Assembly: GCA_902561355.1 (NCBI GenBank)
Contig: CACEPG010000014.1
Span: forward strand, 1-33,410
Reading direction: 5' to 3'
DNA: 33,410 bases
Origin: an uncultured Alphaproteobacteria bacterium
Lineage (GTDB): Bacteria > Pseudomonadota > Alphaproteobacteria > HIMB59 > GCA-002718135
Shown: one piece after another, positions 1 to 12,627 of the stretch
How the letters are laid out: every line of letters begins with the position of its first letter
Position numbering within the stretch: position 1 is the first letter of the stretch
The notes under the pieces: model-generated
Databases searched by the model: none
What the model was told of the DNA's origin: nothing
Seen by the model: the letters and a program-made list of their open reading frames with translations, nothing else
Translations under genes and position numbers: made by a program

Positions 1-221
1 GCAGAAGATATTTGAACAAAAATATAAAACCAAATTTTTTGCTGCCAATTAAAAATAAAAGCAATAACAAATATAAGAATTATAAAATAATATGGATGTC
101 TTTGTTTCAAACACATTGAGCATGGTTCTAAATTAAAAATAAATTCTGCAACTAATGCAAAACTGATTGAAATAAAACTTATTGCACCTAAAATCCAAAA
201 CCAGTATTTTTTTAATTTCAT
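1..221 (-). CDS. dsbB: DsbB-type disulfide bond formation protein, 5' part only
   Basis: The reading frame starts at an ATG at 221-219 and runs off the left edge after 73 codons. The first residues form a membrane segment. It is followed by a Cys-x-x-Cys pair in the context EPCSMC, then Gln-Arg and His-Pro-Tyr, then a second membrane segment. This arrangement (first periplasmic CxxC followed by QR.PY) is the hallmark of DsbB, the inner-membrane quinone reductase that re-oxidises DsbA. The start overlaps the TGA stop of the upstream DedA gene in an ATGA, so the two are translationally coupled. The second periplasmic cysteine pair lies outside the window. Confidence 0.85.
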   Translation of the reverse strand, partial: MKLKKYWFWILGAISFISISFALVAEFIFNLEPCSMCLKQRHPYYFIILIFVIAFIFNWQQKIWFYIFVQISS

Positions 222-802
222 AAAACCTTAAGTAGTAATATACTGCCTATAAGTAATATAAAAAATAGACTTGCTAGCAAATTAAAATATTTGTCAATTA
301 ATTGCTTAACCGTGTTACCAAAAATATACAATAATCCAGCTAATATATAAAATCTTAAACCTCTTGCAAAAAACGCAACAATAATAAATTGTAAAATATT
401 TAAATTAAATACACCACTAGCAATTGTTATAAATTTAAATGGAAATGGAGTAAAACCAGCTCCTAGGACTATCCAAATGCCATATTTATTGTAATAATCT
501 TCAAAAGAATCAAAAGAATTTGACAATCCGTATAAATCTACAATAAAACTTCCAATTACAGAATAAAAAAAATAACCAATTGCATAACCAATTAATCCGC
601 CTGCTACAGAAGATATTGTACATACAAAAGCATAAAACCATGCACGTGCACGTTTAGCTATTATCATTGGAATTAAAATAATATCTGGAGGAATAGGGAA
701 GAAAGAACTTTCCATAAAAGATACAATGCCTAAGAACCAACTTGCATTTTTATGAGCTGATTTGTTTAATGTCCAATTATATAATCTTCTAAGAATATTC
801 AT
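218..802 (-). CDS. DedA/YqaA-family membrane protein (VTT domain)
   Basis: This is a 194-aa membrane protein with about four to five hydrophobic segments. A Pro-rich ESSFFPIPPDI stretch near residue 30 and a G-x-G-F-T-P-F-P-F-K motif near residue 120 are typical of the DedA/VTT family, specifically the YqaA-like branch. These proteins are thought to move or scramble lipids such as undecaprenyl phosphate. The start is MNILRR at 802. The frame stays open further upstream, but those 28 codons are the translated tRNA-Leu gene (MAELVDAP... artefact) and are not part of the protein. It sits 5 bp downstream of the tRNA and is coupled to dsbB by an ATGA overlap, so the tRNA may share its transcript. 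Confidence 0.85.
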   Translation of the reverse strand: MNILRRLYNWTLNKSAHKNASWFLGIVSFMESSFFPIPPDIILIPMIIAKRARAWFYAFVCTISSVAGGLIGYAIGYFFYSVIGSFIVDLYGLSNSFDSFEDYYNKYGIWIVLGAGFTPFPFKFITIASGVFNLNILQFIIVAFFARGLRFYILAGLLYIFGNTVKQLIDKYFNLLASLFFILLIGSILLLKVL

Positions 803-807
803 ATTTT

Positions 808-892
808 TGGTAGGAGTAGAGGGAATCGAACCCACACCACCGAAGTGACCGGATTTTGAATCCGGCGCGTCTACCAGTTCCGCCATACTCCC
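808..892 (-). tRNA. tRNA-Leu (anticodon CAA)
   Basis: The 85-nt gene reads 5' to 3' from 892 to 808. The acceptor stem pairs GGGAGTA with TACTCCT (one terminal G-U), followed by discriminator A and an encoded CCA. The anticodon stem CCGGA/TCCGG carries loop TTCAAAA, giving anticodon CAA, which reads UUG leucine codons. A long class II variable arm (CAC-TTCG-GTG) fits leucine. The T stem (GTGGG/CCCTC) has one apparent U-U mismatch. The 5' 50 nt are duplicated at 2138-2187, which marks the gene as an integration target. Its present upstream region therefore belongs to the inserted DNA and not to the original locus. Confidence 0.95.
843..892. repeat. 50-bp direct repeat, copy 1 (inside tRNA-Leu; putative att site)
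   Basis: This covers the 5' end of tRNA-Leu through the start of the variable arm. It is identical base for base to 2138-2187 (offset 1295). The match ends sharply on both sides: cg versus aa before it, and at versus tt after it. This is what integration into a tRNA gene by a tyrosine recombinase leaves, with the anticodon stem-loop as the likely crossover region. Confidence 0.9.
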
Positions 893-946
893 ATATTGTT
901 TTTTACTGTTTTACTGGGTTTTTTTGATTAAGTCTATTGAGTAATT

Positions 947-952
947 ATTATA
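947..952 (-). promoter_or_regulatory. Possible -10 element for tRNA-Leu
   Basis: Read on the minus strand the bases are TATAAT, about 55 nt upstream of the tRNA 5' end. It is the best -10 match between the tRNA and the cargo gene. No good -35 is visible at the usual spacing, and an A+T-rich sequence gives such matches by chance. If real, it is a promoter supplied by the inserted DNA. Confidence 0.3.
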
Positions 953-965
953 AATTACAATCACA

Positions 966-985
966 GGGCGTATTAAGGGCGTATT
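966..985. repeat. Tandem GGGCGTATT motif pair (putative integrase arm sites)
   Basis: GGGCGTATT occurs at 966-974 and again at 977-985, an 11-bp period (one helical turn), 74 bp outside the tRNA repeat. The same motif recurs at 2079-2087 and, as GGGCGTACT, at 2286-2294. Short G-rich direct repeats flanking a tRNA core resemble arm-type binding sites of tyrosine recombinases. The binding role is inferred. Confidence 0.45.
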
Positions 986-998
986 GAAACTGATCAAA

Positions 999-2024
999 TT
1001 AATTCCTAAAATCAATATAAATAAAATGAATATTTGGACTCTTAGTTTTAAAATTAGAGTGTTCTCGCATTTTATCATGTTCCCAACCATGCGCTTCAAG
1101 TTTTTCATAATCCCATTGTTCTAAATAATCTTTATCATCACTTACATAAATTAATTTAGTAAACCTTCGTAGTTTACTTTCCATTTTTAATCTCTGTTTG
1201 AGTAAAATAGTTTCAATTTCAACATTATCTTTATATGATTGATCATATATTTCATAAATTGGAAAAATACCACAGGGTACATTAATTTCTAAATTCTCTC
1301 CTATTAAATCACAAATTAATTTACCAGATTTTATTTCTATAGATTTATTTTGCAATTTTGAAATTCTGGGTATGAATTTATTAGTATAAATTTTATTTTT
1401 AAAATTTGCAATTTTGATAATTCTTTCAATAGAATTTTCATTTAACTCTGCGGTTGTATCAGGATCATAAATATTCTTGATATACTTTTTAATTATATTT
1501 TCCGCTCCCTCCTGGGCTGCTAAGAGAAGAAATTGATCATCTCCCTTAATATCAGAAGCTTCTTCTTCAAAACCAATTTTTTTGTAACTAAAATGACTTA
1601 ATTTTCTTATATTTAATATATCTGCATTTTCATTTGTTTTAATTGTTTCTATTTTATTATTTTTTTTATTTCGTATTAATTTTATTAAACCAAATTTTTC
1701 TAATTCATCTAATTGATCGTCTATATTTTGAAGGGGCAAATCCTTTACATCCATATGAGTAGTAGAAATTAATAACTCCTCAAACTCACCTTTATTATTT
1801 TGTTTTCCAAAAAATTTAAATCTATTTAACCAACCATCTGAAAAAGTTATAAATTTCGTATTTTTATAAGCAAAATTTAAAACTATACCATTACTAGGAT
1901 TTTTATTTATGCAAATATCTAGTGAATACTTATGTTTTTCATTAAATATCTTCTTATCTAAAATGCAGAACATGCATGAACTACTATCTCTATGTTTAAT
2001 TTCTCCTATGTATGAATAATTCAT
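999..2024 (-). CDS. Hypothetical protein, sole cargo gene of the tRNA-bounded element
   Basis: This 341-aa protein matches no family I recognise. It is hydrophilic, rich in Lys, Asn and Ile, with no signal peptide or membrane segment. A Cys-x-x-Cys (CMFC) lies near residues 17-20. The middle (about 90-220) is charged and probably helical. The C-terminal third has the RLKMESKLRRF and YEKLEAHGWEHDKMREH segments. The start at 2024 has no clear ribosome binding site, and no better ATG is visible upstream. The gene fills almost the whole element and points toward the tRNA. A defence, regulatory or mobilisation role would be typical for such cargo, but nothing in the sequence shows it. Confidence 0.65.
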   Translation of the reverse strand: MNYSYIGEIKHRDSSSCMFCILDKKIFNEKHKYSLDICINKNPSNGIVLNFAYKNTKFITFSDGWLNRFKFFGKQNNKGEFEELLISTTHMDVKDLPLQNIDDQLDELEKFGLIKLIRNKKNNKIETIKTNENADILNIRKLSHFSYKKIGFEEEASDIKGDDQFLLLAAQEGAENIIKKYIKNIYDPDTTAELNENSIERIIKIANFKNKIYTNKFIPRISKLQNKSIEIKSGKLICDLIGENLEINVPCGIFPIYEIYDQSYKDNVEIETILLKQRLKMESKLRRFTKLIYVSDDKDYLEQWDYEKLEAHGWEHDKMREHSNFKTKSPNIHFIYIDFRN

Positions 2025-2078
2025 TAATTAATTATGTTAACATTTAGAGGTAGAAATTTTAATCTAAAAGCGTAGCAT

Positions 2079-2087
2079 GGGCGTATT
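2079..2087. repeat. GGGCGTATT motif, inner side of the second tRNA repeat
   Basis: This is an exact copy of the 966 and 977 motif, 51 bp before the second 50-bp repeat. It places one candidate arm site at each end of the element. Confidence 0.4.
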
Positions 2088-2137
2088 TATCAATTAGACT
2101 TACTTAATTTATTTGAATAAATTGACATTTTTTTAAA

Positions 2138-2187
2138 AAGTGACCGGATTTTGAATCCGGCGCGTCTACCAGTTCCGCCATACTCCC
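2138..2187. repeat. 50-bp direct repeat, copy 2 (truncated tRNA-Leu; putative att site)
   Basis: This is a perfect duplicate of the first 50 nt of tRNA-Leu(CAA), in the same orientation as the intact gene. It holds the 5' acceptor strand, D arm, anticodon arm and the first bases of the variable arm. It lacks the T arm and 3' acceptor strand, so it cannot make a functional tRNA. Confidence 0.9.
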
Positions 2188-2285
2188 TTTGTTGTTATTC
2201 AAGTTAAAAACGCCTATGTTTCAGCCTTTCACTTTCTTATTTCTGCGTAAACAATAACATAAAAAACATAAAAAAAAACACCTAA

Positions 2286-2294
2286 GGGCGTACT
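2286..2294. repeat. GGGCGTACT motif outside the second tRNA repeat
   Basis: It differs by one base from the motif inside the element and lies 99 bp beyond the second tRNA repeat, comparable to the 74 bp between the first repeat and the 966 motif. It hints that the DNA to the right of the second repeat also came in by a related recombinase. Confidence 0.35.
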
Positions 2295-2316
2295 TGGGGA
2301 ATCGCTATACTAGATT

Positions 2317-2354
2317 GATTCAAAACATGATTCTAAATGATTCATAATTGATTC
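2317..2354. repeat. Four GATTC repeats at about one-helical-turn spacing
   Basis: GATTC begins at 2317, 2329, 2339 and 2350 (spacings 12, 10 and 11 bp), mostly within the longer word TGATTCA. Each is a GANTC site, the target of the cell-cycle methyltransferase CcrM in alphaproteobacteria. The phasing places all sites on one face of the helix, as in iteron-like or cooperative protein-binding arrays. A similar group lies at 5087-5128. Which protein binds is not known from the sequence. Confidence 0.5.
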
Positions 2355-2618
2355 AGATCGGGGTTTAAAGTATATTAAATGATTAGCTGATTGCCTATAA
2401 TAAATTGAGTTATAGTAAAATAATTTAATGAAAAAAAATATTTAACAGCTTTATCAATGTAATTAATGATTATGATTAAAATTTAGTTAATATGTTATTT
2501 TACTCAGTTGAATTTATTTTTATATTTTTACCTCTATTTTTTTTAATTTTTTTAGTACTACGCATAACAGCCTACGGCATACCTCGAAAAAACGTGCTGT
2601 TCATCCAGTTAACAAATC

Positions 2619-2651
2619 TATAATATAAGACTGAAACTTAACCTATGGAGG
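2619..2651 (+). promoter_or_regulatory. Candidate -10 box and ribosome binding site of the accessory operon
   Basis: TATAAT at 2619-2624 is followed after a short leader by GGAGG at 2647-2651, six bases before the ATG at 2658. The Shine-Dalgarno match is stronger than for most genes in this window. No convincing -35 is seen. Confidence 0.45.
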
Positions 2652-2657
2652 TGTGAG

Positions 2658-2834
2658 ATGAAATCTTATGCTGGGCTGAAAGCTAAAAAGGAAGCAATTC
2701 AGCAGCAGATAGTTGTAGCAAAGAAGAACGAACTTGCAAACGCACTGAAAGAAGTTAAGCGTCTTTGCAAAGAGTTTGACTTTACAGCTGGGTTGCTGAA
2801 AGGTTCGTTGGATGAAGAACGAAAGAAATCATGA
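2658..2834 (+). CDS. 58-aa H-NS-like N-terminal (oligomerisation) domain protein
   Basis: This short gene encodes a charged helical protein: MKSYAGLKAKKEAI, then a run of Glu, Lys and Ala, then EVKRLCKEFDFTAGLL. The pattern of a coiled coil followed by a (V/I)xxLxxEFxxTxxxL segment resembles the N-terminal oligomerisation half of H-NS family proteins of proteobacteria. The C-terminal DNA-binding AT-hook-like part is absent, and the protein ends in basic residues. Truncated H-NS relatives on islands (H-NST type) are known to antagonise full-length H-NS. A similar role here is an inference. The stop overlaps the next start in ATGA, and a GGAGG ribosome site precedes it. The homology is weak because of length. 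Confidence 0.6.
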   Translation: MKSYAGLKAKKEAIQQQIVVAKKNELANALKEVKRLCKEFDFTAGLLKGSLDEERKKS

Positions 2835-4186
2835 GTTTAGAGGAAAGAATTGAAAAGGTTTTTACAGATCTTTTTCCTATTAACAGAAGTCTTACGGGTA
2901 AGGGGGTATATGAAACTTTTAACTATCTCCTCGAAAATTTTTCACTTAATGGAGAGCTGAAATCAATTCCGTCTGGTACACAAGTATTTGATTGGGTTGT
3001 TCCTGACGAATGGAACATAAATGATGGATATATTCTAAATGGAGCAGGTGAAAAAATTATTGACTTCAAAGATTCTAATTTACACGTAATGTCATATTCG
3101 GCGCCTGTAGATAAGATAGTAAATGCAGATGAACTAAGAAACCATATTTACACACTTCCAAAATATCCTGATCGAATTCCTTACCGAACCTCTTATTACA
3201 AGAAAAATTGGGGATTTTGTTGCTCTCATAATTTGTTTAAAAGTGATAAATTTTACCCACCTTTTACAGTGTTCATAGACTCTTCTTTTAATTCTGATGG
3301 GAATTTAAGTTGGCTTGAGTGTGTCAAAAAAGGCCACACAAAAAAAGAAATTCTAATTTCTACCTACTGCTGCCATCCAAGTTTAGCTAATGATAATCTT
3401 AGCGGAATCGTTTTGGCAGCATTTTTATTTGAATATTTGAGTAAGTTAGATACAAAATATACTTACCGACTAGTTGTTTTGCCTGAAACAATTGGTGCGA
3501 TATCATTTCTTTCCCAAACGAATAAGAAGAACATCATTGGTGGCATGGTGCTAAGTTGCGTAGCTGGGCCTGATAAACTTTCCATTAAGGAAGGTTTTGA
3601 TCCAAATCACTTTATGACTGAAAGTGCTCATCTGGCAGTCAAATCTTGTGTCGGTGAAGAATATTTGACTTATCCTTTTGTTCCAGATGGAAGCGATGAA
3701 CGTCAGTACTCAACGCCAGGGTTTAGAATAGTCACGCCCTCAATTCACAAATCAAAATACTATGAATTTGATGAATACCATACATCTGCTGATGACTTAG
3801 ATTTTGTGAAGCCTAAATCACTTGTTGAGACCTTGGAAGTTCATAAGAACTGGATAGGTTTGATAGAAAGTTATTGTTATCCTAAACGCACAAATGAATT
3901 TTGCGAATTCCATTTGGGGAAACGAAATTTATACCCTCATTTGGGTGGTACCCTTAATCAAAAAGCTCATCACGAAAATGAAGTTGGCAATCATCAAAGA
4001 TTGTTCAGTTTTGAAGATGAGGTGGATTTGACTGGTGCGCATTTGGATGCGTTCCATTGGTTAATGCATTTAGCTGATGGAACTATTTCTAATTTTGATA
4101 TAGCCAAACGAAGTAAATTAGACATCTCGATAGTCAATGAAGCTATTGCAGCGATGTATCAAAAAGAATTATTGGAGTTAATATGA
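2831..4186 (+). CDS. DUF4910 / M28-type aminopeptidase-like protein
   Basis: This 451-aa protein has the architecture of the DUF2172-DUF4910 family. The N-terminal domain (about 1-130) opens with the LFPINRSLTG signature. The M28-like zinc peptidase core (about 130-350) has the metal-ligand pattern Cys-Cys-His182-Pro...Asn-Asp188, Glu219 and His317 in EYHTSADD. The C-terminal winged-helix-like region covers about 370-451. Members are common in capsule, O-antigen and modified-sugar gene clusters, where their reaction is unsettled. It is sandwiched by 4-bp overlaps between the small H-NS-like gene and a formyltransferase, so the three are co-translated. The ligands appear intact, so it is probably an active metalloenzyme. 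G+C is higher than in neighbouring core genes, consistent with transfer. Confidence 0.85.
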   Translation: MSLEERIEKVFTDLFPINRSLTGKGVYETFNYLLENFSLNGELKSIPSGTQVFDWVVPDEWNINDGYILNGAGEKIIDFKDSNLHVMSYSAPVDKIVNADELRNHIYTLPKYPDRIPYRTSYYKKNWGFCCSHNLFKSDKFYPPFTVFIDSSFNSDGNLSWLECVKKGHTKKEILISTYCCHPSLANDNLSGIVLAAFLFEYLSKLDTKYTYRLVVLPETIGAISFLSQTNKKNIIGGMVLSCVAGPDKLSIKEGFDPNHFMTESAHLAVKSCVGEEYLTYPFVPDGSDERQYSTPGFRIVTPSIHKSKYYEFDEYHTSADDLDFVKPKSLVETLEVHKNWIGLIESYCYPKRTNEFCEFHLGKRNLYPHLGGTLNQKAHHENEVGNHQRLFSFEDEVDLTGAHLDAFHWLMHLADGTISNFDIAKRSKLDISIVNEAIAAMYQKELLELI

Positions 4187-4989
4187 AGCTGATTTTATTT
4201 TCTGGAGATCATCCAAGACATCTTTTTGTTAACAAAAAGGTACTAGAATTTTTTGACGATATCTTTGTAATAGTAATGCAAAGAGAGGAATTATTACCTA
4301 AGCCACCAAATGAACTAGATAATCACGACAAAGAATTATTCCAGCTGCACTTTGAAAATAGATATCGCGTGGAATCTTCATTCTATGGAGATTTAAACGC
4401 CCACGAAGTATTCAAAAACTTCAATTCTATTTTCATCAAACCTAAAGAACTTAACACAGAATTAGTTGCGGATAAGGTTAAAAAATTTGATGCAAACTTT
4501 TGTTTTATATTTGGTGTAAATTTGATACTTGATCCAGTTATTGATGCGCTGCCAGTGGACAAAATAAATCTCCATCTAGGTTTGTCACCTTGGTATAAAG
4601 GTGGTGCTACACTTTTTTGGCCGTTTTATCACTTGGAGCCACAGTTTTGTGGCTCTACATTTCATCAAATTACAAAGCAGGCTGATGCCGGAGAAATAAT
4701 ACACCAGTGTGTCCCTGAGTTACTGTCAGGTGATACACTTCATGATGTTGGTGCGCGCTGTGTTGTAAAAGCTAGAGATGAAATAAGTAAAATATTTGCT
4801 CATTGGAAGAGAGTGCGGAAATTTGATGGTCAAGTACAGAGAGCGTCTGGAAGAAATTGGCGAGAAGAAGATTTTCACGCTTCTCAGCTACGTGTCATTT
4901 ACGATTTGTACCAAGATAAAATGGTAGATAGTTACTTATCGGGAGAACTAAGCAATAGAAAGCCAAAGCTTATTTCATGTATTACTTAA
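4183..4989 (+). CDS. Formyltransferase (10-formyl-tetrahydrofolate dependent, sugar N-formyltransferase-like)
   Basis: This 268-aa protein shows the formyltransferase catalytic signature: Asn129-x-His131-x-Gly-x-Ser-Pro, then a K-G-G loop and Asp168 in QADAGEI, matching the Asn-His-Asp triad of the Fmt/GART family. It lacks the long C-terminal tRNA-binding domain expected of methionyl-tRNA formyltransferase (about 310 aa). Together with the DUF4910 neighbour this suggests formylation of an amino-sugar or other small amine. It overlaps the preceding gene by ATGA. No nucleotide-sugar aminotransferase is visible in the window, so the substrate is open. Confidence 0.85.
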   Translation: MKLILFSGDHPRHLFVNKKVLEFFDDIFVIVMQREELLPKPPNELDNHDKELFQLHFENRYRVESSFYGDLNAHEVFKNFNSIFIKPKELNTELVADKVKKFDANFCFIFGVNLILDPVIDALPVDKINLHLGLSPWYKGGATLFWPFYHLEPQFCGSTFHQITKQADAGEIIHQCVPELLSGDTLHDVGARCVVKARDEISKIFAHWKRVRKFDGQVQRASGRNWREEDFHASQLRVIYDLYQDKMVDSYLSGELSNRKPKLISCIT

Positions 4990-5086
4990 CTGATATTAAA
5001 AATTAAAGTCAAAATTCCTAATAATTGTTTCATTGACTCAATATATAAAAAAATTATGAAAGTTAAATAAAAAAAATGTCTTGTAA

Positions 5087-5128
5087 GATTCTATTCAAAT
5101 CAGATTTATATTGATTCATGTTTGATTC
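5087..5128. repeat. GATTC repeats upstream of the rhodanese gene
   Basis: GATTC begins at 5087, 5113 and 5124. The last two lie in TTGATTCA-type words 11 bp apart. The group ends 29 bp before the rhodanese start, a promoter-proximal position. It echoes the array at 2317-2354. Confidence 0.4.
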
Positions 5129-5157
5129 AGTAGTATTTTTTAGGAAAGTAAAATATA

Positions 5158-5574
5158 ATGTTAATTAAATTTTGTATAAAAATTATAGTTTGTTTATTAA
5201 CTGTAAAATTTGCATTTGCAGATATTGTCGATATAAATAATGTGCAAATTAAAGAATTATCAAAAAATAATATTCCAATTGTAGACGTAAGAAGAAGTTC
5301 TGAATGGGACCAAACTGGAGTTGTTCCAAAAAGCATTCTGTTAACCTTTTTTGATAAAGAAGGAAATTATAATTATGATGAATGGTATGAAAAATTACGT
5401 TTAGAAATTGATGAAGGTCAACCAATAATCTTAATTTGTAGAACTGGAAGAAGAACTAAGATAATTGCCAAAATGATGGAAATAAAAAAATTTGATAATG
5501 TTATTTATAACGCAAAAAGTGGAATAACGTCTTGGATTGATGAAAAATTAATAACTGTTAAACCACAGTATTAA
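5158..5574 (+). CDS. Exported single-domain rhodanese-like protein
   Basis: This 138-aa protein starts with a signal peptide (Lys-rich start, hydrophobic 5-19, cleavage plausible after FAFA at about 21). A rhodanese domain covers about 25-135. It has the N-terminal IVDVRRSSEW motif and the active-site loop C94-R-T-G-R-R-T100, matching CxxGxR(S/T). The catalytic Cys is intact, so sulfur transfer or thiol chemistry in the periplasm is expected. It is a lone gene: the preceding 168 bp separate it from the higher-G+C operon and the next gene is 330 bp away. It seems to mark the return to core-like sequence composition. Confidence 0.85.
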   Translation: MLIKFCIKIIVCLLTVKFAFADIVDINNVQIKELSKNNIPIVDVRRSSEWDQTGVVPKSILLTFFDKEGNYNYDEWYEKLRLEIDEGQPIILICRTGRRTKIIAKMMEIKKFDNVIYNAKSGITSWIDEKLITVKPQY

Positions 5575-5591
5575 TTTATTCTTTTTATTTA

Positions 5592-5754
5592 AATAAATTA
5601 TCAGGAAATATATTTTTAGATTTTAATAACGATGATTATTATAAACATAATATAAAAAATTGCCCCGATTTAGCTGATAGCAAGTATTTAATTAAATTTT
5701 GATTATTATTTGTGGTTTGAGAGAAATTTACCACAAGGAAAAGATTTAAATTGA
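5592..5754 (+). pseudogene. Possible frameshifted remnant of a small gene
   Basis: Reading from 5592 gives a protein-like string (NKLSGNIFLDF ... CPDLADSKYLIKF) that stops at 5700-5702. Shifting one base gives DYYLWFERNLPQGKDLN up to the stop at 5752-5754. The amino-acid mix, with Trp, Cys and several Pro, is unlike random A+T-rich translation. There is no start codon. The family is not recognised and chance is not excluded. Confidence 0.25.
5710..5736. repeat. Inverted repeat TTGTGGT-N13-ACCACAA
   Basis: A perfect 7-bp stem with a 13-nt loop lies about 170 bp upstream of the bactofilin gene. No U-tract follows, so it is a poor terminator. It may be an operator or RNA hairpin. Confidence 0.35.
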
Positions 5755-5904
5755 TGTCCAAAACCTACTATCGACGCTTTTACTAATATTTTTATAATAA
5801 AGTTAATATAATCGAAGCCCCTCTAAAGCAAATGTATGTAACAAAAATTTCAGATTAAAAACTTGTTCATTGTGTGTAATTTATAAGTATGCTATAAAAA
5901 TATC

Positions 5905-6369
5905 ATGTTTGAAAAGAATAAAAGCAAAAGTCCTGATGGAAGCAATAGTGATGTCTTTAGACCTATGAAGGGTTCTGCCAAAGTAATTATTGGTAATGGA
6001 GTAAAGTTAAAAGGAGAAATTACTCAAGCTGATGAGGTTCAGATAGACGGCGAAGCTGATGTAACTATGAAGACTGATAATTTAATTGTAGGTGCTACAG
6101 GAAATTGCAAAGGTAATGTAGAAACTCACAATGCAGATGTATGGGGGGTTTTTGATGGTGATATTAAAGCTTCAGGAACACTAACTGTTCAAGAAGCTGG
6201 CAATGTATCTGGTACTGTAGAATATCAATCTTTACAAATTAAATTAGGTGGTAAAATTAGTGGTGATGTTAAATTATCTGATAAAATAAAACCAATTAAA
6301 CAAGAAATTAAAGAAGATGGAGATTCTTCAGTTAAATCACTTCAAGATTCAATAAGTAAAAATAAATAA
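5905..6369 (+). CDS. Bactofilin (polymer-forming cytoskeletal protein)
   Basis: This 154-aa protein has the bactofilin layout: a short polar N-terminus (1-22), a central repetitive beta-helix core (about 25-125) and a charged Lys/Glu-rich tail. In the core, Gly and hydrophobic residues recur roughly every six residues (VIIGNGVKLKGEI, VQIDGEADV, LIVGATGNCKGNV). Bactofilins self-assemble without nucleotides into filaments at the membrane and help set cell shape or polar organisation. It ends 4 bp from the convergent racemase-like gene. No M23 peptidase neighbour, a common partner elsewhere, is present. Confidence 0.9.
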   Translation: MFEKNKSKSPDGSNSDVFRPMKGSAKVIIGNGVKLKGEITQADEVQIDGEADVTMKTDNLIVGATGNCKGNVETHNADVWGVFDGDIKASGTLTVQEAGNVSGTVEYQSLQIKLGGKISGDVKLSDKIKPIKQEIKEDGDSSVKSLQDSISKNK

Positions 6370-6373
6370 TTAA

Positions 6374-7165
6374 TTAGAGTTCAGTAAATAGTCTTCCAAG
6401 TTTAGGTATTTTGTCATTTATGCCTGCAAGACGTAAGCAATCCCAAAGCATTGCTTGATTACTTGCAATAACAGGTTTCCCTATAGCATCTTCGATTTGA
6501 TTAATAACATCCATAGTTCTTAGAGCACCGCAACTCATTAAAAAACCATTTGATTCTGGATGATCAACAGCCTTGGCAAATTCGACCAAGTATTCAGGAG
6601 TTACTCGTATCATATCTTTATCATAGTCTAAGTTCATTCCTTGAAAGTTTAGTATTTCAAAACCATTTTGTACAAAATAGTTTGCCATTTCTGTATTTAA
6701 TTCATCTACATAAGGTGTTCCTACCGATAATTTTTTTATCCCCATTTTGTTTAATGCTTTTCTTACACCAGATATAAGAGTTGTTGCTTTGGAGTCAGGA
6801 TGCGCTTTTATTAATTCTTTCATTGAAACATCTTCTCCAACTGCTACAGCACCTGAAGTACATGCAAAACAAATTACATCTAATTTATCATCTGGTAAAA
6901 TGCGTTTAGCAGTTTCTGCTAATGTATCTTTACATTTTGCTAGAGCAGATGTTGATATTTCATGAGGCATAATTGCACGAGAAAAATACATACCCACATC
7001 TTTAGGTGCCCAATTAAGCATATCTTTTTCTATTGTTTGCTCATTTGGAATAAGTACAAATCCAATTTTACCACGCGCATTACGCCCAGCATCAAATTGA
7101 ACATTCCATTTTTCTGATTTTACTTGATTATTTAACAAAGAGTCCTCAAAATTTTTTTTCAACAT
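6374..7165 (-). CDS. Asp/Glu racemase superfamily protein, maleate isomerase / arylmalonate decarboxylase-like
   Basis: This 263-aa protein has the two-cysteine pattern of the superfamily. Cys of CFACTSGAVAVG (about 117-128) and Cys of LMSCGALRT (about 208-216) lie in the two pseudo-symmetric halves. The N-terminal GKIGFVLIPNEQTIEKD segment and length fit maleate cis-trans isomerase or arylmalonate decarboxylase relatives rather than glutamate racemase (MurI). It is last in the minus-strand run and 65 bp downstream of the isomerase-like gene, a wider gap than elsewhere in the run. Substrate is unknown, but a small dicarboxylate would fit the neighbouring malate synthase. Confidence 0.8.
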   Translation of the reverse strand: MLKKNFEDSLLNNQVKSEKWNVQFDAGRNARGKIGFVLIPNEQTIEKDMLNWAPKDVGMYFSRAIMPHEISTSALAKCKDTLAETAKRILPDDKLDVICFACTSGAVAVGEDVSMKELIKAHPDSKATTLISGVRKALNKMGIKKLSVGTPYVDELNTEMANYFVQNGFEILNFQGMNLDYDKDMIRVTPEYLVEFAKAVDHPESNGFLMSCGALRTMDVINQIEDAIGKPVIASNQAMLWDCLRLAGINDKIPKLGRLFTEL

Positions 7166-10470: not shown

Positions 10471-12627
10471 CTATTTATTTTTTGATTTAAATTCTAATCG
10501 TCGTTTATGTAATATAGGCTCTGTATAACCTGAAGGTTGATTAGCGCCTTCAAAAACAAGTTCCTTTGCAGCTTGAAAAGCAATTGAGTTATAATTGGGT
10601 GACATCTTAATATAGTTTGAATCCTCTTTATTTTGTTGATCCACTACTATTGCCATTTTTTTTAATGCATTTAATGCCTGTTCTTTTGTTATTAAACCAT
10701 TTTCAATCCAGTTAGTTATAGCTTGTGAGGAAATTCTACAAGTTGCTCTGTCTTCCATTAATCCAATATTATTTATATCAGGTACTTTTGAACAACCAAT
10801 ACCTTGATCTATCCACCGAACTACATAGCCTAAAATTCCTTGAGCATTATTTTCAATTTCTGCATTAATTTCCTCTTGAGATAAATTTTGTCGATCCAAA
10901 ATTGGTACAGAAAGAAGGTCATTTAATTTAGCTTTATTTCTATTCTTAATTATATTGTTTTGAACATCTAAAACATTAATTTGATGGTAGTGCATTGCAT
11001 GTAATGTTGCTGCAGTTGGACTTGGTACCCAAGCACAATTGGCTCCAGATTTAGGATGTGATATTTTTTGATCTACCATCTCAGCCATTAAATCTGGCAT
11101 TGCCCACATACCTTTTCCAATTTGTGCTTTTCCCTGAAGTCCACATTCTAAACCAATATCAACATTTCTATCTTCATATGATTTTATCCAAGTAGCATTT
11201 TTCATATCAGCTTTTCTAATAAAATTTCCAGCTAACATTGATGTATGAATTTCATCTCCAGTTCTGTCTAAAAAACCTGTGTTTATAAAAGCGATTCTAG
11301 ACTTAGCTTCTCGAATGCATTCTTTCAAATTAACACTAGTTCGTCTTTCTTCGTCCATAATACCGATTTTAATTGTATTCATTGGAAGTGATAACATTAC
11401 TTCTATTTTTTCAAAAAGTTTTACAGTAAATGCAACTTCTTCCGGACCGTGCATTTTTGGTTTTACGATATAAATCGAATTGTAAAGAGAGTTTTTATTG
11501 TCTAGTTTTTTAAGATCATGTATAGCAATTAGTGAGGTAATTACCCCATCCATTATACCTTCACCAATTTCTTCATTTTGATTATCTAGAATTGCTGGAG
11601 TTGTCATCAAGTGTCCAACATTTCTAATTAACATGAGAGATCTACCTTTAAGAATTTTATTTTCCCCACTTAAAGTCTTAATAGTTATATTTTCATTTAA
11701 TACCCTTTTTATTTTTTTTTCATTTTTAGTAAAAGTAGATTCTAAATCTCCTTTCATCAATCCTAACCAATTTCTATATGCAGTCACTTTATCATCAGCA
11801 TCTACTGTTGCAACACTGTCTTCACAATCAAGTATAGTTGATATTGCTGATTCAAAAATAATATCAGAAATTCCAGCAGAATCTACTTTGCCAATAGCAT
11901 CTTTATTGTTGATTATTATTCTACAATGAAGATTATTTTTTACTAATATTAGTTCGCCAAGATTATTTTGAATATTTTTAGAAATTCCAACAATTTGATT
12001 TTCATTTTTAAAAACAGTTGAATCATTTGATAATAATTTAAATGTGATTTTATTATTTTCTAAATTTATGTTTTTTACCTGATCCCAATTAGAATTTTTT
12101 AATGGAGCAAAATTATCTAAATAGGATTTAGCATATTTAACTACGTCTTGACCTCTTTTCGGGTCATATTTTTTCAAATTTGGCAAACTTCCTAATACAT
12201 TAGTTCCATAGATTGCGTCATAAAAACTACCCCATCTTGCATTTACTGCATTAAGTGCGTAACGTGCATTAGTAATTGGAACAACCAATTGTGGACCACA
12301 AATATATGCTATTTCAGGATCAATGTTAGTAGTTTCAACTGTAAATTCAGCCCCTTCTTCTACGAGATATTCTATTTCAACTAAGAATTTTTTATAATTT
12401 TCAATATCAACTTCCTTGCCTTTATAACTTTTATTCCATTCATCAATTTTAATTTGAATATCTTTTCTTTTTTTAAGAAGTTTTTTATTGATTGGATTAA
12501 ATTCATCAACAATATTAGAAAAATTACTCCAAAAAATTTCCTTATCAAGATCTAGGCCTTGTAGAACCTCATTGTTAATAAATTCATATAAGTGAGTATT
12601 TATTTTTAAATTAAATTTATCAATCAT
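10471..12627 (-). CDS. glcB: Malate synthase G
   Basis: This 718-aa protein has the length and order of malate synthase G (isoform G, about 720 aa): LDCEDSVATVDADDK, the catalytic-arginine region GIMDEERRTSVNL, NTGFLDRTGDEIHTS and GANCAWVPSPTAATLHA. It condenses glyoxylate with acetyl-CoA to malate. In Pelagibacter the gene is reported under a glycine riboswitch. Here it follows sufE by only 11 bp, leaving no room for one, so it must depend on the upstream gal-suf transcript or an internal promoter. No isocitrate lyase is in the window. The glyoxylate may come from glycolate, glycine or a dioxygenase product. Confidence 0.95.
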   Translation of the reverse strand: MIDKFNLKINTHLYEFINNEVLQGLDLDKEIFWSNFSNIVDEFNPINKKLLKKRKDIQIKIDEWNKSYKGKEVDIENYKKFLVEIEYLVEEGAEFTVETTNIDPEIAYICGPQLVVPITNARYALNAVNARWGSFYDAIYGTNVLGSLPNLKKYDPKRGQDVVKYAKSYLDNFAPLKNSNWDQVKNINLENNKITFKLLSNDSTVFKNENQIVGISKNIQNNLGELILVKNNLHCRIIINNKDAIGKVDSAGISDIIFESAISTILDCEDSVATVDADDKVTAYRNWLGLMKGDLESTFTKNEKKIKRVLNENITIKTLSGENKILKGRSLMLIRNVGHLMTTPAILDNQNEEIGEGIMDGVITSLIAIHDLKKLDNKNSLYNSIYIVKPKMHGPEEVAFTVKLFEKIEVMLSLPMNTIKIGIMDEERRTSVNLKECIREAKSRIAFINTGFLDRTGDEIHTSMLAGNFIRKADMKNATWIKSYEDRNVDIGLECGLQGKAQIGKGMWAMPDLMAEMVDQKISHPKSGANCAWVPSPTAATLHAMHYHQINVLDVQNNIIKNRNKAKLNDLLSVPILDRQNLSQEEINAEIENNAQGILGYVVRWIDQGIGCSKVPDINNIGLMEDRATCRISSQAITNWIENGLITKEQALNALKKMAIVVDQQNKEDSNYIKMSPNYNSIAFQAAKELVFEGANQPSGYTEPILHKRRLEFKSKNK

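Follow-up and report, generated by a model that had tools for sequence, protein, structure and literature searches.

The tRNA-Leu(CAA) locus of an uncultured HIMB59 alphaproteobacterium raises the question of how the 5' half of a tRNA gene comes to be present twice, with a single gene between the two copies. The window, i.e. the whole stretch of 33,410 nucleotides that was analysed, is contig 14 of a 1.29-Mb assembly that is 68% complete. It contains one tRNA gene, tRNA-Leu(CAA), detected by ARAGORN, in agreement with Rfam on the first 5.2 kb. Nucleotides 1–50 of this tRNA (843–892) recur at 2138–2187 as a perfect direct repeat, exactly as described in the initial annotation. A chance origin of this 50-bp repeat is ruled out, with about 10^-15 such repeats expected in the window, and a scan of the window with a 27-mer from the repeat, with up to three mismatches allowed, matches at the two copies only. 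The duplicated block begins with the 5' acceptor strand, as first reported, and continues across the anticodon arm; it stops where the variable arm begins (nt 50) and does not run through it. The terminal fragment has the same orientation as the intact gene and lies on the correct side for a tRNA island. The features of the locus are as follows.

808–892, minus strand: intact tRNA-Leu(CAA) (ARAGORN, Rfam, repeat)
893–2137, no strand: cargo-only insert (cassette), 1,245 bp (repeat bounds, locus map)
908–936, minus strand: promoter-like block in the insert, with a -35-like TAGACT (936–931), a 17-nt spacer and a -10-like TAAAAC (913–908)
965–985, plus strand: left-end arm-type direct repeats, AGGGCGTATT twice, 11-bp spacing (9/9 match)
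999–2024, minus strand: cargo ORF, 341 aa, of no known family (ORF list, domain searches)
2059–2137, no strand: right end of the insert (75–79% identity to the right ends of L034, L035 and L043)
2068–2087, plus strand: right-end arm-type direct repeats, AAGCGTAGC..GGGCGTATT, 11-bp spacing, the weaker pair (6/9 match)
2138–2187, minus strand: putatively displaced native tRNA 5' fragment (nt 1–50), outer attachment half-site (repeat match)
2188–2347, no strand: outer flank, left-end remnant of an earlier element (homologous, 113/150, to the corresponding end of the integrase-remnant insert of L047)

A clean pair of occupied and empty sites is provided by a sister insert at the same tRNA in another genome (G087, locus L100), which is 1,057 bp long and carries an RNase_T-like gene. 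When this insert is removed in silico, so that its left flank meets its 5' fragment, the resulting sequence matches five uninterrupted loci, i.e. empty sites (L101, L060, L084, L106 and L066), with 95.6–96.0% identity (1,441 aligned bp, 5 gap columns). Many other relatives are empty as well. For the window itself, the comparison rests with L047, the best pre-insertion state available, where the tRNA adjoins a homologue of 2188–2347 (113/150), and the joined window flanks are 73.8% identical to L047 over 763 bp. By analogy with the L100 occupied/empty pair, tRNA nt 1–50 (892–843) would be supplied by the insert and nt 51–85 (842–808) would be native. The reading of the locus as a 5'-type, non-autonomous insertion, put forward in the initial annotation, is largely supported by the L100 pair and by the locus map described below.

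That annotation also held that the insert has become the upstream region of the tRNA and should carry its promoter, and this idea fares well. In L100, the promoter known from the empty relatives lies ahead of the displaced fragment, and a different, cassette-borne one lies ahead of the intact tRNA; the native promoter was displaced along with the 5' half, and the element supplied a new one. The displaced fragment of L100 also contains a change in the D-loop region that is absent from the intact copy, and has begun to mutate. In the window, the block at 936–908 probably drives tRNA-Leu. Its -35-like motif fits a positioned pattern: TNGACT is present in 73 of the 99 upstream sequences, starting in 48 of them exactly at -44 of the tRNA, compared with 2.9% of random 60-mers.

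The locus was mapped, as the place defined by the DedA-family gene and tRNA-Leu, at 78 loci from about 76 genomes of the genus, with counts limited by draft genomes and cut contigs. A single tRNA copy is present at 50 of these loci, many of them empty. Upstream 5' fragments, which mostly end at nt 41–63, are found at 19 loci (three are decayed, with 77–84% identity, and in L032 the intact tRNA itself is cut by the contig start), and downstream 3' fragments, which start at nt 25–36, at eight. The distance between the full tRNA and the fragment is mostly 0.7–2.9 kb, often with one gene, and at some loci the inserts are stacked, as in L033 (685, 1,091 and 880 bp). tRNA-Leu(CAA) is an insertion hotspot in the genus. 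Because nearly all fragments overlap in the anticodon arm, strand exchange is likely to occur there. At two loci (L039:3343–4883 and L040:2307–3389), a single gene is flanked by complete copies of tRNA-Leu(CAA), as though the whole tRNA were contained in the attachment site. On the other side of the tRNA, the DedA-family ORF of the window (218–886) can be read from a start within the tRNA gene (222 aa); the true start is likely to lie downstream, as in the relatives (194 aa).

Several inserts at this hotspot share their ends. The right end of the window insert matches that of L034 with 79% identity and those of L035 and L043 with 75–78%, and the left end also matches L034 (90 of the 107 aligned positions). 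Despite both ends in common, the cargo of L034 is a polysaccharide lyase (Polysacc_lyase) unrelated to the 341-aa gene; other cassettes carry an HNH protein, a DNA methylase, an FkbM methyltransferase or a staphylococcal-nuclease homologue. Relatives that lack the 341-aa gene and keep both repeats had been named as a sign against insertion; they exist only as loci with different cargo behind the same ends (L034), and therefore speak for a family of cassettes and against a local duplication of the tRNA. Both cassette ends contain pairs of repeats of about 10 bp, spaced by 11 bp and lying at similar distances from the core, as in the window insert, where arm-type repeats flank the core. Such 11-bp-spaced pairs, with at least 8/9 matches, are present in eight of the 22 right ends and 22 of the 98 upstream ends, compared with 1.3% of random 80-mers, and resemble integrase arm sites. 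The motif GGGCGTAYT has four copies in the window, all within 966–2294, with 0.1 expected.

The insert encodes no recombinase, as the initial annotation had stated: its only long ORF, that of 341 aa, has no integrase domain. Linked recombinases, which it had been suggested to seek in relatives, are indeed found at the same tRNA. A tyrosine integrase of 332 aa (alignment A1), with the PF00589 Phage_integrase domain and the expected catalytic residues conserved, belongs to a family present at tRNA-Leu in L044, L052 and L054 and, as a truncated remnant of 118 aa, in L047. L044 is a 9.5-kb, 3'-type element; in L052 and L054, the integrase lies next to a 5' fragment and the contigs stop short of the intact tRNA. 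The 80-bp stretch that separates the integrase from the 5' fragment in L054 is 85–98% identical to the right ends of integrase-less cassettes (L033, L035, L036, L037, L048 and L049), against a baseline of 45% median and 66% maximum identity for random 80-mers. The dependence on the integrase of another element, proposed at the outset, gains support from these common ends for sister cassettes only; the search for an integrase element with the exact end subtype of the window returned a single strong match, an insert without an integrase (G058). No integrase of the 332-aa family is present in the assembled 68% of the source genome, and the viral contigs searched contain neither relatives of the integrase nor the exact 42-mer of the attachment core.

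The wider integrase family is found in 10 of the 162 genomes of the order. Among named records, related integrases occur in single-cell genomes labelled 'Alphaproteobacteria' (AG-457 series) and in a MAG labelled 'Pelagibacteraceae'. Members of the family adjoin tRNA-Gly, Arg, Phe and Ser genes as well as tRNA-Leu, in elements of both the 5' and the 3' type. The larger integrase elements encode primase/helicase-like proteins (DUF5906, CHC2 zinc finger) and, because of these, resemble phage satellites; a tyrosine recombinase together with replication genes is present in L044, L145, L147 and L148 and absent from the window insert. Complete 5'-type integrase elements lie at tRNA-Ser(GCT) in L145 (10.9 kb) and L147 (7.3 kb), where the intervals L145:1747–12786 and L147:7426–14904 contain primase/helicase genes and tRNA-Ser(GCT) fragments of nt 1–39 and 1–42. 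At tRNA-Gly(GCC), L148:4221–12567 contains three 3' fragments (nt 25–75 or 27–75) about 1.2 kb apart and an integrase element; this is a 3'-type cassette array at another tRNA.

The preferred reading, held with a probability of about 75%, takes the 1,245-bp segment to be a non-autonomous integrative cassette, inserted by an integrase of the 332-aa family from a satellite-like element at tRNA-Leu. Such a cassette would consist of a single cargo gene, with half of a full tyrosine-integrase attachment site on either side. In the circular form expected upon excision, attP would be composed of the right arm (2059–2137), the core (tRNA-Leu(CAA) nt 50–1) and the left arm (893–985), the last of which would also hold a tRNA promoter. 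The integrase, acting in trans, would cross over in the anticodon region and, because the homology extends towards nt 1, integration would displace the native 5' half and promoter; the cassette would bring replacements for both, so that the essential tRNA survives. The newest cassettes would enter at the intact tRNA, and therefore old ones would pile outward into a tandem array with decaying 5' fragments. Against this reading, the right arm repeat of the window is weak (6/9), the search turned up no integrase element of the exact end subtype, a family integrase is missing from the assembled 68% of the source genome, and L052 and L054 are cut by contig ends, with the intact tRNA outside the sequence. 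The 1-kb inserts might, moreover, be defunct leftovers of deletions and not mobile units.

The insert could instead be a decayed, CIME-like island, now immobile, left by a larger integrase-bearing element that inserted here and kept only its ends and one gene. L047, a 5'-type insert with the 118-aa integrase remnant and one other gene, is such a decay state; the outer flank at 2188–2347 is the left end of an L047-like element, and both CIMEs and accretion are known (PMC5704250). Yet many cassettes hold little more than one or two genes between a pair of full arms, with cargo that differs between genomes behind the same ends, and independent, repeated decay to one minimal form is a less simple account than the recurrent arrival of minimal units. 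No integrase remnant, moreover, is recognisable in the window insert, and decay is accordingly considered unlikely. Farther out, at 2658–4989, a 58-aa ORF, a DUF4910/M28-like protein gene and a formyltransferase gene separate the outer element remnant from the rhodanese gene; they may be cargo of an older insertion. No further decayed tRNA fragment was found at 2188–6500, where the best scores are no better than in the rest of the window.

Exchange of cargo by homologous recombination between the conserved flanks and tRNA copies would dispense with a present-day site-specific recombinase. Homologous recombination has been proposed for other islands of HIMB59 (PMC10734472), and the common cassette ends could serve as the homology. 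Nevertheless, the exactness with which the L100 insert sits in an otherwise continuous site, the fixed 11-bp repeat pairs at both ends and the linked integrases at the same tRNA make such exchange very improbable. That part of the tRNA gene was duplicated locally, with no mobile DNA involved, might be supposed from the full second tRNA copies of L039 and L040, but is hardly credible in view of the empty sites in relatives, the cassette-specific ends and the arm repeats; for L100, it is refuted by the empty-site comparison.

As a tiny, cargo-only tRNA island, the window insert is a variant of known tRNA islands. In the Islander collection, 3,760 islands have 3' fragments and 159 have 5' fragments (PMC4383910), so that the initial annotation was right that duplication of the 3' end is the rule, with the amendment that the 5' type is already on record (159 of 3,919). 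As in those islands, the tRNA and a same-orientation fragment mark the ends, and the crossover, anticodon-centred there, probably is so here; unlike them, the window insert is 1.2 kb long and lacks an internal integrase, and at tRNA-Leu the 5' type outnumbers the 3' type (19 vs 8 loci). The closest descriptions of integrase-less, stacked elements are those of CIMEs and accretion (PMC5704250) and of the Dehalococcoides ssrA arrays (PMC3146451), which likewise keep attL and attR and pile up at one RNA gene. The window insert, too, has no integration or transfer genes and retains attL and attR; an integrase remnant that would speak for a CIME-like decay origin is present in L047 and absent here. 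The Dehalococcoides islands differ in that their repeats are the ssrA 3' end, the enzyme is a serine recombinase and the islands are larger (PMC3146451), and replacement of the tRNA 5' half and promoter sets the window apart from both.

The accessible part of the report on 'Ca. Methylopumilus' describes fGI-2 at tRNA-Lys as an additive island of 330 bp to 42 kb, with 1–63 genes, marked by recurring 20-bp tRNA-Lys repeats (PMC10872708). The printed repeat, when reverse-complemented, looks to us like a tRNA 5' end; an integrase, arm sites and promoter replacement are not reported in that part of the source. Tycheposons and marine phage satellites, as far as the accessible parts of PMC10872708 and PMC11389934 describe them, have a tRNA-linked tyrosine recombinase, and the integrase-bearing relatives in this study share with them the primase/helicase genes, whereas the window insert has neither a tRNA-linked recombinase nor replication genes. 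With integron gene cassettes the insert shares the single-gene unit and, as proposed here, collection beside one site by a recombinase in trans; unlike there, half of a tRNA, accompanied by arm repeats, serves as the site, and no attC or IntI-type enzyme is implied.

The present case differs from these in that the insert is minimal, with a single gene, the 5' type prevails, the tRNA promoter is replaced and one integrase family is linked with both types. More broadly, and tentatively, a streamlined marine lineage may possess a cassette-collecting system that uses the 5' half of an essential tRNA gene, together with its promoter, for attachment, with minimal one-gene cassettes, each with full attP arms, inserted in trans by satellite integrases and the promoter swapped each time. 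Genome-streamlined ocean bacteria could in this way gather single genes at one address, a simple and testable route. The data suggest that integrases of a single family, by acting at the anticodon region, are able to leave behind one or the other half of a tRNA gene and that 5'-type elements must bring a working promoter for an essential tRNA. Cassettes this small may be overlooked elsewhere because Islander-style searches exclude them: candidates without an integrase or below 2 kb are rejected (PMC4383910).

The cargo of the window itself matches no known family. Pfam yields only a sub-threshold winged-helix match to the 341-aa protein, PADLOC and PHROGs give no matches, a pattern scan of the genome contigs searched finds no relatives, and the AlphaFold model (six sequences) has a mean pLDDT of 54.8, too poor for use. 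Relatives with 28–34% identity are encoded in G027, G011, G000 (contig 30), G043 and G007. Loci with relatives elsewhere in the genus are L138 (the locus on G000 contig 30, at 11616–12311), L136, L137, L139 and L140; that of L137 lies near tRNA-Ser(TGA) and that of L140 beyond a tRNA-Arg 3' fragment. Proteins of 84 aa and 202–204 aa are recurring neighbours of some of these relatives, and the protein in L139 is similar to the cargo of 240 aa at tRNA-Leu in L111.
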